NCBI GenBank assembly: GCA_937944055.1
Contig: CALDZJ010000057.1
Location: 1 to 59,480, forward strand
Direction of reading: 5' to 3'
Length of the DNA stretch: 59,480 nucleotides
From: an uncultured Verrucomicrobiales bacterium
Lineage (GTDB): Bacteria > Verrucomicrobiota > Verrucomicrobiia > Verrucomicrobiales > Akkermansiaceae
The translations under genes were made by a program, and so were the position numbers. A model generated the notes under the pieces. That model ran no database searches and was not told the origin of the DNA. It saw nothing but the letters and a program-made list of their open reading frames with translations. Positions 962-59,480 of the stretch are shown here, in pieces (within the stretch, counting starts at the first letter, position 1; each line of letters begins with the position of its first letter).

Positions 962-1660
962 ATGAAGAAAAACACCCTGATAACCATCGCCTCCATCGCG
1001 CTTCTCGCCACCGGCTCGGCGCGCACTTGGACCAGCGCTGATGGCTCCAAAACCTTTGAAGGAGAATTCATCTCCTGCTCTGAAGACAGCATCACCGTGA
1101 AACAAGGACTGAAAGAACGGACTTTTAAACTCGCCCTCCTCTCACAAGAAGACCAAGAATGGGCTAAAGCAGAAGGCATCAAAGTCGCCGCAGCCGCTGA
1201 AAACGCAGAAGCCGCCGAAGAATTCGCCAATAGCAAATTCGGAAAAGCCTTTCGTAAGCTCAAAAAATTAGACGGTAAGCGCTTCGCGAAACATGAACTC
1301 GGCGGACCTCCAAAGCTCTTTCTCCTCTACATCTCAGCCAGTTGGTGAGGACCTTGTAAATCCGGCGCCCCGCAGTTAGCGGAGCTCTACAACCAACAAA
1401 TCGCCAGCAACCCAAACCTCGAGATCGTCCACCTTTCACTCGATCGTAGCGAGGACGATGCCGCAACTTGGGCTCAGTCATTTAAGCAACCTTGGCCCAT
1501 CATCATCAATGAGGACATCGATCGCGAAACCCTCCTAGAACCTCACTTCCCAGACGGACGCATCAGCCTCCCCACCTACCTCCTCGTAGATCGTGAAGGC
1601 AAGGAAGTCGCCCGAGGAAAGAACGCCTCCTTCGCAGCAGCCAAAATCGAACAAGGCTAA
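962..1660 (+). CDS. Secreted SHD1-thioredoxin fusion, predicted selenoprotein (in-frame TGA = Sec129)
   Basis: A 232-residue protein if the TGA at 1346-1348 is read as selenocysteine. Residues 1-20 are a Sec signal peptide (MKKN then a hydrophobic core). Residues about 21-75 resemble an SHD1 domain (RTWTSADGSKTFEGEF, ending LLSQEDQEWA), common in Planctomycetes and Verrucomicrobia. Residues about 115-232 form a thioredoxin fold: beta strand LFLLYISASW, then TGA-GPCK at the position of the canonical WCGPC motif, helix GAPQLAELYN, and the cis-Pro motif SLPTYLLVD at Pro204. After the TGA the frame stays open and keeps thioredoxin features for 103 codons to a TAA, which does not look like decay. 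The predicted active site is Sec129-Gly-Pro-Cys132, acting in the periplasm on unknown thiols or disulfides. A SECIS-like hairpin follows the TGA. Alternatives are a recent TGC/TGT to TGA mutation or a sequencing error. Confidence 0.8.
1349..1388 (+). promoter_or_regulatory. Candidate bacterial SECIS element inside the thioredoxin coding region
   Basis: Directly after the TGA codon the RNA can fold into an imperfect hairpin. The upper stem is CCGC (1370-1373) paired with GCGG (1379-1382), closing a five-base loop AGTTA (1374-1378). Lower pairs are 1367-1368 with 1384-1385 and 1364-1365 with 1387-1388, with mismatches at 1369/1383 and 1366/1386. Bacterial SECIS elements lie just 3' of the UGA inside the reading frame and carry a G in the first two loop positions for SelB recognition; the second loop base here is G, followed by U. 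There are 25 bases from the UGA to the loop, within the range known for bacterial elements. The fold was done by eye. Confidence 0.6.
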
Positions 1661-30048: not shown

Positions 30049-31935
30049 TTAACGGATTCCCTTCAAAAGAAGCTCCGTATTACTCGTCGTTCGGGCGAGA
30101 TTCCTTAAAAGAGTCTCGATCGCCTCACCGATGGGCTGACTGGCCAAGTGTCGACGGATTTCTTGCACCCTCGGGAGCTCATCAGGATGGTAAAGGCGGT
30201 CGTCATTTCGCGTGCCACTCTGGGGGATATGAATCGCCGGGTAAATCCGCTGCTCAGCGAGCTCGCGGTCGAGACGCACCTCCATATTGCCAGTGCCCTT
30301 CAATTCCTCGAATATCACATCATCCATGCGACTTTCAGTCTCCACCAAGCAAGTGGCGAGAATTGTCAAACTCCCACCTTCCTCGATATTACGTGCTGCT
30401 CCGAAAAACTTACGGGTTTCGGTAATCGCCTTTGGGCTGATTCCACCTGAGCCAATTGGGCCTCCGCGCGCGGCATTATTGTATCCGCGTGCTAGACGGG
30501 TCAAACTATCCAACAAAATCACAACATCTCTCCCCTGCTCTACGAGGCGGCGAGACCTCTCCAAGACAAGATTGGCAACCTCCGCATGCCTCTTTGAAGG
30601 CTCATCAAAAGTAGAAGCAAAAACATTCTGCCCCACCATTTCCTCAAAGTCCGTGACCTCTTCCGGCCGTTCATCGAGGAGTAAAATCACCAACTCAGCC
30701 TCAGGAGCATTCATTTGAATGGCTCGCGCGATCTGCTTCAGTAAAATCGTCTTCCCCCCCCTTGGAGGAGCCACAATTAACCCCCTTTGCCCCTTGCCCA
30801 GTGGAGCCACCAAATCCACAACTCGCGTGGCCAGCCCCGCGCCATCATCCTCTCCCTCTAGCACAAAGCGCTCCTCTGGAAATAGGGAAGTCAGCGCATC
30901 AAAATGAGTCAATGACACCCGCTCAGAGATCGGCAACCCTTCAACCTCTAAGACCTCCGAGACGGAAAGATACTTATCCCGGGGACGTGCCCCTCTCACC
31001 AAAACCTTCATCCGTTGCCCTTCGCGCAAGTCATGTTGCTTGATCAATTCAAGCGGCACATGGAGATCATCGGGTGAGCTGCGGAAGCTTCGCAGCTCAT
31101 CTCGCAGCATCCCGAAGTTCCCTCCGGAGTATTCTAAAACCCCCTCACCCGTCACTCGAGTTCCATGTGTGGCATAGCATGAAACCACCGTGAAGACGAG
31201 CTGCGCCCGTGTGACTTGGTTCGGGATCCGCACCGGCAAGCGCTCCACCTCATCATAAAGATCACTCAGTGACTCATTCCGAAAGGTGTTCAAATCTAAT
31301 TCATCAGGAACCTCAGGCGGAGGTGGCGGAGGCTTCTCCTCCTGCTTTTTTTCCTGCTTTTCTTTCTTTTTTCTCAGCCCTTCCCCTTCTGACTTGGTCT
31401 CCCCTTCAGCCTCCTTTCCCCTTCTCACTTCATCACTCTCAGAAGGAATCTCATCTTCGATCACCGTTAAAATATCCTCATTTTCAGACAGCTCTTGCTT
31501 AGCGACCTTTTTCTTTGGAGCACTTTTCTTACCCGCTGCCTTCTTGCGAGCTTCTTGCGCTAAAAGAGCCGCCTTTGCCGCCACTTCTTGAGCCACTCTT
31601 GCCGCTTCCATCGCCGCCTCCGCTGCCGCTGCCGCCGCCAGCGCCTCATCCTCCACCTCATCAACCTCATCAACCTCGACCAGCTTCTCCGCTCGCCCAG
31701 ATTCCTGAGCAGCCTCTTCGATTTCTAAGGCCAATTCCGGCTCAGAAGCTGAGCGCCCCCCCTTTTTCTTCACGGCTTTTTTAGTCGCTTTTTTAGTCGC
31801 TTTTTTAGCGGATTTCTTCGCCGCTTTTTTAGTCGCTTTTTTTGCCACCTTCTTAGTGGCTTTCTTGGAGACCGCTTTGGTCAAAGACTCCTTCGGGCTT
31901 CCCGTGGGATCAATAGGCTCTTGCTCTTCAGTCAT
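30049..31935 (-). CDS. rho: Transcription termination factor Rho with long histone-H1-like N-terminal tail
   Basis: 628 residues, about 200 more than E. coli Rho. The extra N-terminus begins with a Lys/Ala/Thr repeat (KKATKKVAKK, and so on) resembling bacterial histone-H1-like proteins. It then turns acidic and alanine-rich (VDEVDEVEDEALAAAAAAEAAMEAA), then mixed Lys/Glu and poly-Pro. The Rho core starts near DELDLNTFRNESLSDLY. It includes the primary RNA-binding cold-shock-like domain (GEGVLEYSGGNFGMLR), Walker A PPRGGKT, Walker B RDVVILLDSLTRLARGYN and the R-loop end. Its start overlaps the coaE stop (ATGA), so translation is coupled. N-terminal insertions in Rho are known in several phyla and may bind RNA or drive condensation. 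Confidence 0.96.
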   Translation of the reverse strand: MTEEQEPIDPTGSPKESLTKAVSKKATKKVAKKATKKAAKKSAKKATKKATKKAVKKKGGRSASEPELALEIEEAAQESGRAEKLVEVDEVDEVEDEALAAAAAAEAAMEAARVAQEVAAKAALLAQEARKKAAGKKSAPKKKVAKQELSENEDILTVIEDEIPSESDEVRRGKEAEGETKSEGEGLRKKKEKQEKKQEEKPPPPPPEVPDELDLNTFRNESLSDLYDEVERLPVRIPNQVTRAQLVFTVVSCYATHGTRVTGEGVLEYSGGNFGMLRDELRSFRSSPDDLHVPLELIKQHDLREGQRMKVLVRGARPRDKYLSVSEVLEVEGLPISERVSLTHFDALTSLFPEERFVLEGEDDGAGLATRVVDLVAPLGKGQRGLIVAPPRGGKTILLKQIARAIQMNAPEAELVILLLDERPEEVTDFEEMVGQNVFASTFDEPSKRHAEVANLVLERSRRLVEQGRDVVILLDSLTRLARGYNNAARGGPIGSGGISPKAITETRKFFGAARNIEEGGSLTILATCLVETESRMDDVIFEELKGTGNMEVRLDRELAEQRIYPAIHIPQSGTRNDDRLYHPDELPRVQEIRRHLASQPIGEAIETLLRNLARTTSNTELLLKGIR

Positions 31936-58941: not shown

Positions 58942-59480
58942 TTGGCCTTCGGATTTTTCAAGAAAGACAAGAACACGGGACCCATCGAGGTCACTTGTCC
59001 TTTGTGCGAACATAGCCAGCAGGAATCTCCGCTGGCCGTCTCCTCCTATTGTAAAGGCTGCAAAGCATACCTCTCCTTCGAGAAAACTGGCGAAATCACG
59101 GCCCGGGCTCAAGCAAGCCCAGATCCCTTCGCCCATCGCCCCGCCCAGCCCAAAATCGACATCGAATACAAAGCACGCGAGGAAGCCCCCATCACTCCAG
59201 CCGCAAAAAAAGCAACACCTGCACCCGCAGTAACGAAACCTGCACCCGCAGCAACGAAACCTGCACCCGCCGCAACGAAACCTGCACCCGCCGCAACGAA
59301 ACCTGCACCCGCAGCAACGAAACCTGCACCCGCAGCACCCGCACCCGCAGCACCCGCACCCGCAGCAACGAAACCTGCACCCGCCGCACCCGCACCCGCA
59401 CCCGCCGCGCAAGAGCAGGAACAAGAGCAGGAACAGACCCAGGAAGACCTCCCTGAAATCAAGCCCCTCCTCGGCTCTGC
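58942..59480 (+). CDS. Zinc-ribbon protein with PAPA repeats, probably a bactofilin-type gene (3' truncated)
   Basis: The frame opens after a stop at 58918-58920 and stays open to the window end. The only plausible start is TTG at 58942 (MAFGFFKKDKNTGPIEV). A zinc ribbon follows with knuckles CPLC and CKGC (VTCPLCEHSQQ ... YCKGCKAYLSF), then a disordered region of KPAPAAT repeats and a Gln/Glu-rich stretch. Zinc ribbon plus linker before a bactofilin domain is an arrangement I recall from Verrucomicrobia, and a bactofilin is directly upstream; the domain itself, if present, lies beyond the window. Confidence 0.7.
   Translation, partial: MAFGFFKKDKNTGPIEVTCPLCEHSQQESPLAVSSYCKGCKAYLSFEKTGEITARAQASPDPFAHRPAQPKIDIEYKAREEAPITPAAKKATPAPAVTKPAPAATKPAPAATKPAPAATKPAPAATKPAPAAPAPAAPAPAATKPAPAAPAPAPAAQEQEQEQEQTQEDLPEIKPLLGS
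59215..59403 (+). repeat. 21-base tandem repeat encoding KPAPAAT
   Basis: The unit is AAACCTGCACCCGCAGCAACG with small changes (GCA/GCC). It repeats about six times, then shorter GCACCCGCA units continue. All are in the frame of the zinc-ribbon protein, so it is a protein linker. The opposite strand also has open frames here, which are only shadows. Confidence 0.85.

Follow-up and report, generated by a model that had tools for sequence, protein, structure and literature searches.

Does the single in-frame TGA in a thioredoxin-like gene of an uncultured Verrucomicrobiales bacterium terminate its protein product, or does it encode selenocysteine (Sec, U)? The predicted selenoprotein gene lies on the forward strand at positions 962–1660 of the window, the 59,480-nucleotide stretch of DNA analysed here, and it spans 232 residues, from the ATG at 962 to the TAA stop codon at 1658–1660, with homologues along its full length. 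The 232-codon frame is open save for one TGA at 1346–1348, after which it runs for 103 codons to the TAA, while under the standard code the open reading frame (ORF) ends at the TGA after 128 residues. With the TGA read as U, residues 128–132 are W-U-G-P-C and residues 202–206 are S-L-P-T-Y. Comparison with homologues suggests that the TGA encodes Sec129, the first residue of a U-x-x-C motif. The TGT at 1355–1357 would supply the resolving Cys132, which is Cys in 48/48 long Sec rows and 20/20 Cys rows of the homologue alignment, the rows having been picked by the motif itself. The codon at 1571–1573 encodes Pro204 of S-L-P-T-Y, a Pro in 47/48 Sec rows and 20/20 Cys rows, which we take to be the cis-Pro of the thioredoxin fold on the basis of its role in that fold.

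The coding character of the frame has also been probed by comparison of substitution rates and by a survey of the window. Among eight homologue pairs, dN is 0.17–0.47 versus a dS of 1.07–2.5 on both sides of the TGA, with dS saturated in 2 of the 16 half-gene values. Among the 41 ORFs retained across the window with a minimum length of 100 codons, this gene was the only TGA-ended ORF with a domain-like extension; the two other TGA extensions of at least 40 codons in the window (41 and 44 codons) appear by eye to be noise. Two repetitive regions were also observed in the window. Positions 59212–59435, near the contig end, contain 12- to 63-base tandem repeats with low-complexity translations, and 12/24-base repeats at 31775–31863 code for a segment rich in K and A early in a minus-strand ORF of 628 residues.

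Distribution of TGA- and Cys-Type Homologues

The family survey covered 260 genomes of the same family, 249 of which contain some match, with matches listed down to E ~3e-17. Among the matches listed, 64 of the 260 genomes have a TGA inside the match (TGA-type genomes). The homologue DNA was read in 49 of these 64 (L020, L023–L051, L075–L094), together with 20 TGA-less genomes (L055–L074). The TGA falls at the Sec129-equivalent residue in 49/49 of the TGA-type genomes read, and the motif [AG]-S-[WT]-U-x-x-C is present in 48/49, the exception being W-U-P-S-A in genome G183 (L090). The genomes read yield 59 distinct U-x-x-C stretches. Because the TGA recurs at the same residue in every TGA-type genome read, the comparison indicates that it is neither a chance event nor a sequencing error, and so TGC or TGT at 1346–1348 is not expected on resequencing. 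The preliminary description of this DNA had placed the TGA where the first Cys of W-C-G-P-C belongs, followed the thioredoxin frame for 103 codons beyond it, and anticipated that standard annotation would truncate the protein at 128 residues. Each of these points holds: the first by translation and by the recurrence of the TGA just described, the second by a match to PF13905 in the frame (42.4 bits, cut-off 27), and the third by the loss of the redox domain under the standard code.

A Cys codon occupies the Sec position in 20/20 of the TGA-less genes read (TGC in 17, TGT in 3). Thus, the Cys that the preliminary description had named as support for Sec at position 129 is what relatives lacking selA carry, in all 20 read. 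The occurrence of the TGA follows that of selA, for which 70 family genomes have a match, 69 of them above the cut-off. The gene is found in 58 of the 64 TGA-type genomes, and the other six all have selB above the cut-off; five of these six also have selD above the cut-off, each with a TGA. Because selB is present in all six and a TGA-bearing selD in five, the lack of a selA match in these genomes probably reflects an assembly gap. Among the matches listed, 56 genomes have a TGA-less match that spans the active site, and selA is found in 0/56; 12 of the 70 selA genomes are without a TGA homologue among these matches. The association between TGA and selA (Fisher p ~1e-38) is descriptive, as the genomes are related and the counts are not independent events. 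Furthermore, selD was absent from the three Cys-type genomes tested (G006, G256, and G134; E up to 1e-30).

The Sec and Cys forms are also separated phylogenetically. In a tree of 81 thioredoxin domains, the 61 Sec rows and 20 Cys rows are split by one branch with support of 97/93; the tree is unrooted and gives no direction of Sec/Cys change. Of 387 genomes drawn from across the phylum, 89 yield a match with E no higher than 1e-10, and TGA-bearing matches occur in this family only.

A few individual loci depart from the general pattern. The homologue in G183 (L090) no longer has the resolving Cys, and its genome, at 96% completeness, contains selB and selD and no selA match. In G236 (L040), the head of a Sec homologue is in a different frame from its thioredoxin part and the match contains a TAG, which suggests a broken copy or an assembly error. 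A gene in G013 (L118, G013:C1:8700-9600), from a genus without selA, was considered as a counter-example to the Sec reading and rejected. Its TGA occupies the Trp position just ahead of a C-G-P-C that is itself intact, and the G010 copy of the gene (L119) encodes W at this point. As judged from these sequences, the Cys-type gene of G013 is a broken copy or a sequencing error and not a Sec case.

Selenocysteine Machinery of the Source Genome

The source genome, 92.45% complete, is a 2.59-Mb draft assembly of 108 contigs. Genome searches identified selA (486 bits), selB (307 bits), and selD (380 bits), all above the NCBIfam cut-offs, and a tRNA-Sec (selC) with the anticodon TCA that scores 59 bits, above the Rfam gathering score. 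Consequently, selA, selB, and selC, whose absence the preliminary description had named beforehand as refuting, are all found in the genome, along with the selD for which it had also proposed a search. The selD gene has one TGA inside; this gene (L010, contig C45 of the source genome, G000) is a predicted selenoprotein itself, with ASCGGUASK around its TGA.

A Predicted SECIS Hairpin Downstream of the TGA

A bacterial SECIS hairpin is predicted on the forward strand at 1364–1388, in which a core pairs 1368–1373 with 1379–1384 and the loop AGUUA (1374–1378) follows 25 nt after the TGA. In the window gene, five of the six core pairs are formed, the remaining one (1369–1383) being C-A. The loops of the Sec genes are AGUUG, AGUUA, AGUUU, or AGGUU.

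The conservation of this hairpin was probed by comparison with synonymous sequences in which the protein was kept and codons were redrawn by usage. The 59 distinct U-x-x-C stretches form a mean of 5.32/6 core pairs versus 3.04 (sd 0.11) over the 1000 resampled sets, with the Sec-gene mean reached in 0/1000, and the 20 Cys genes form a mean of 2.9/6; both controls use the same chosen helix. Thinning at 85% identity leaves 39 stretches with 5.33 pairs versus 3.14. As the hairpin was picked out by folding these genes individually, the slide control for the pair counts is somewhat biased towards it. Changes on both sides of a pair occur at 4/6 core pairs (16 cells versus 2.3 shuffled), and the mean core energy is -6.9 kcal/mol for Sec genes and -2.2 kcal/mol for Cys genes. 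These comparisons suggest that the hairpin is kept beyond synonymous expectation, with good comparative support.

Other tests of the hairpin gave null results. The stability of the window-gene hairpin alone is no higher than that of dinucleotide shuffles (z of 0.13, -0.03, -0.80, and 0.24), and RNAalifold predicted no consensus pair on the 59 rows. An Rfam search of 900–1800 returned three chance-level matches far below the gathering score, and a search of the whole window at the gathering score returned no match. A covariance model of the hairpin run over 22 sources scored the window at 52.2 bits, and on the source genome it revealed no second convincing site (window 2.2e-10, next E 1.14). 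The homologous stretch of the Cys genes gives weak matches (L057, 19.2 bits, E 0.0024; L059, 12.1 bits; L072, 9.8 bits), which do not imply a hairpin, as the model includes coding sequence.

Limits for a bacterial SECIS are given in PMC13188914: a loop of 3–9 nt with G in the first two positions, a stem of at least 4 bp, a spacing of 16–37 nt, and an energy of at most -7.5 kcal/mol. The window gene falls within these limits (loop AGUUA, spacing 25, -10.4 kcal/mol), as do 31/59 Sec genes, 3/20 Cys genes, and 19/295 resamplings. The strict limits, as stated there, are failed by 28/59 Sec genes.

Domain Organization and Presumed Export

The thioredoxin-like domain (1244–1618, forward strand; approximately residues 95–219) is identified by Pfam matches above the cut-offs and by matches to sequences of solved structures. 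The best Pfam match is to PF13905 (Thioredoxin_8) at residues 118–214, and PF00578 (AhpC-TSA), PF08534 (Redoxin), and PF00085 (Thioredoxin) also match above their cut-offs. All 14 members of homologue set A3 match Thioredoxin_8 at an E limit of 10, with a best E of 7.9e-18. The domain contains both the CxxC-type motif and the cis-Pro.

The thioredoxin-like domain is preceded by a head (1022–1186, forward strand; residues 21–75) that was assigned from a sub-threshold match to PF03983 (SHD1) and a profile link. PF03983 scores the head at 11.8–12.6 bits, under the cut-off of 23.7, and 3/14 members of set A3 match it at an E limit of 10, with a best E of 8e-4. With a profile built from 48 heads, two proteins of the source genome that pass the Pfam SHD1 cut-off are recovered (L104, E 6.8e-12; L103, E 2.4e-6). 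Across nine loci, the profile also finds the window gene, L105, L021, L022, L053, and L054, the last four originally fetched by their likeness to the window protein, and it does not find L106. The SHD1 label of the preliminary description thus stands in part: the profile joins the head to Pfam-positive SHD1 proteins, and the Pfam match of the head itself stays under the cut-off. 'SHD1-like' appears a fair name for it. In a predicted structure of poor confidence (mean pLDDT 46.8), the head is modelled as four strands followed by a helix.

Similar domains were observed elsewhere in the source genome (G000). The protein L105 (contig C62) combines a Cys thioredoxin-like domain (K-C-S-A-C) with a C-terminal SHD1-like domain, the reverse of the window order, and L021 and L104 carry SHD1-like heads on proteins that look hydrolase-like by eye. 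The SHD1-like head is, as far as these sequences indicate, a module common to unlike proteins.

The N-terminus (962–1021, forward strand; residues 1–20) resembles a signal peptide by eye, with cleavage guessed before R21, and because of this resemblance the protein is presumed to be exported. Homologues begin with similar N-terminal stretches, likewise as judged by eye. Some genomes contain tandem Sec thioredoxins, with three in L075 and two each in L076, L077, and L078. There are also short Sec paralogues without the head, several of which start in a lipoprotein-like manner by eye (e.g., L078 and L094). The tandem and lipoprotein-like paralogues argue for a real, selected role of these proteins. 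Two to three Sec thioredoxins lie close together in L042, L043, L045, L046, L048, L051, L079, and L039 as well, and the motif T-U-G-P-C is present in several of the clustered loci. Of the flanking genes, the one upstream and the S9-type peptidase downstream (named by eye) recur solely within the genus, and none of the gene neighbours points to a substrate or function.

Proposed Mechanism and Alternative Readings

Computation identifies a recurrent TGA at the recoding site, the Sec machinery, the Cys counterparts, the hairpin, and the thioredoxin domain, and the selenocysteine reading is strongly supported by this comparative evidence; the preliminary proposal that the TGA specifies Sec in a redox motif is thereby borne out as a predicted Sec insertion. 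It is very probable that translation of the gene yields a single exported selenoprotein of 232 residues, in which Sec is inserted at the UGA via SelB and the hairpin and takes part in UxxC redox chemistry. From these features we infer the following scheme for insertion, export, chemistry, and the role of the head. First, the ribosome would read the UGA at 1346–1348 as Sec with the aid of SelB, Sec-tRNA, and the hairpin at 1364–1388, and would continue to the TAA. Once exported, the protein would carry an SHD1-like head of the SH3 type, and its thioredoxin-like domain would present Sec129-Gly-Pro-Cys132. Outside the cytoplasm, Sec129 would serve as the nucleophile on a disulfide or other oxidised substrate, and Cys132 would resolve the mixed selenenyl-sulfide. 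As a guess, the head probably serves to position the enzyme at a partner or a surface. The likely function is that of an exported UxxC thiol-disulfide oxidoreductase.

The identity of the reaction is the point on which the strongest competing explanation differs. It is possible, but unlikely, that Sec is inserted into a peroxidase-like enzyme related to AhpC/TSA rather than a disulfide oxidoreductase; PF00578 and PF08534 do match above their cut-offs, and Sec would be expected to favour peroxide chemistry. The best matches are instead to Thioredoxin_8 and to solved chains of the thioredoxin, tryparedoxin, and TlpA/ResA type, and the motif is U-x-x-C and not the T-x-x-U given for Sec peroxiredoxins in PMC13188914.

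The amount of full-length protein made is at issue in a second alternative, in which Sec is inserted only if selenium is plentiful and a functional secreted SHD1-like fragment ending at Trp128 is otherwise produced. Sec insertion at UGA competes with termination. Furthermore, the 48 long Sec genes have the head before the UGA, and other proteins encoded in the genome bear heads of this type. This dual output is nevertheless very unlikely, as the short paralogues have no head at all and a product ending at Trp128 would retain the first part of the thioredoxin domain, which is unlikely to be stable alone.

It is more improbable still that the TGA is a true stop, in a pseudogene or through a sequencing error, with only the 128-residue SHD1-like protein made. 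The standard-code ORF does end there, the hairpin alone is not unusually stable, and stray TGAs exist in homologues, as in the selA-less G013 at the Trp before C-G-P-C. This explanation is difficult to reconcile with a TGA at one residue across 49 separate assemblies, with a dN well below dS past the TGA, with the uniform use of Cys, and not an assortment of codons, by the 20 relatives read that lack the TGA, and with selA or selB in all 64 TGA-type genomes. Finally, UGA reassignment occurs in other bacteria, but the insertion of another amino acid without Sec machinery has a negligible chance here, given the tRNA-Sec (TCA), selA, selB, and selD of this genome, the several window ORFs that end in TGA, and the second in-frame TGA at the end of several homologues (residue 230 in L033) that is still a stop.

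Significance of the Family

The family would add to the known repertoire a UxxC selenoprotein that is confined to one lineage, bears a head domain, and is apparently exported. The standard code loses the redox domain in the TGA-type relatives too, whereas the Cys relatives are read whole. The family also displays a clean Sec/Cys split that tracks the machinery, together with a SECIS hairpin that has comparative support. It is conceivable, if somewhat doubtful, that one verrucomicrobial family has built a dedicated extracytoplasmic selenium redox system, in which a single clade of Sec thioredoxins gave rise to several forms, soluble with an SHD1 head or lipoprotein-like, with as many as three genes in a row and no return to Cys in the rows studied, and which may keep the Sec trait in the lineage. 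The family makes testable why this lineage puts its selenium into extracytoplasmic thioredoxins.

Comparison with Known Systems

An SHD1-Sec-thioredoxin family was not found in Pfam, NCBIfam, Rfam, or the largely open-access literature searched. Literature searches for SHD1 with thioredoxin returned yeast and plant work only, and nothing was found for SHD1 domain with Planctomycet. The combination, which the preliminary description had regarded as undescribed, is thus without a counterpart in the sources searched, and it now represents a lineage-specific family and not a one-off.

The nearest solved sequences are the bacterial chain 4fyu and tryparedoxins; thioredoxin and TlpA/ResA-type chains are also among the best matches. 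The tryparedoxin/Thioredoxin_8 enzymes, including 4fyu, provide the best Pfam and solved-structure matches, which cover the thioredoxin part only; these are Cys enzymes that are not known to carry an SHD1-like head. The TlpA/ResA/DsbE proteins are exported CxxC thioredoxins that function as periplasmic thiol-disulfide oxidoreductases. The window protein differs from them in having Sec and an SHD1-like head, and it matches no NCBIfam model above any cut-off, the nearest being ResA (34 bits) and TlpA (29 bits), far under the cut-offs of 170 and 230, respectively.

Among selenoproteins, the UxxC type is known from the 119 families of Table 1 in PMC13188914, which include thioredoxin (PF00085) and a thiol-disulfide isomerase-like family (cd02966). 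As described in that table, these UxxC proteins resemble the window protein in their thioredoxin-type domain with Sec first in UxxC. The Table 1 entries name no head domain or SHD1, and the main text of PMC13188914 makes no mention of Verrucomicrobia. The isomerase-like and Redoxin UxxC entries, whose reference sequences are MGB1650493.1 and HEU0032618.1, respectively, may overlap with the present family.

The closest relatives are the Cys-type SHD1-like thioredoxins of the same family and phylum, which share the two-domain layout, a similar length, and 28–38% identity. These homologues differ in having Cys at position 129, in lacking selA (the 56 listed genomes), in not keeping the hairpin, and in forming a separate branch. 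Thioredoxin-like selenoproteins of the UxxC type are a known kind; an SHD1-headed family of them, with tandem and lipoprotein-like paralogues, was met in none of the sources searched.
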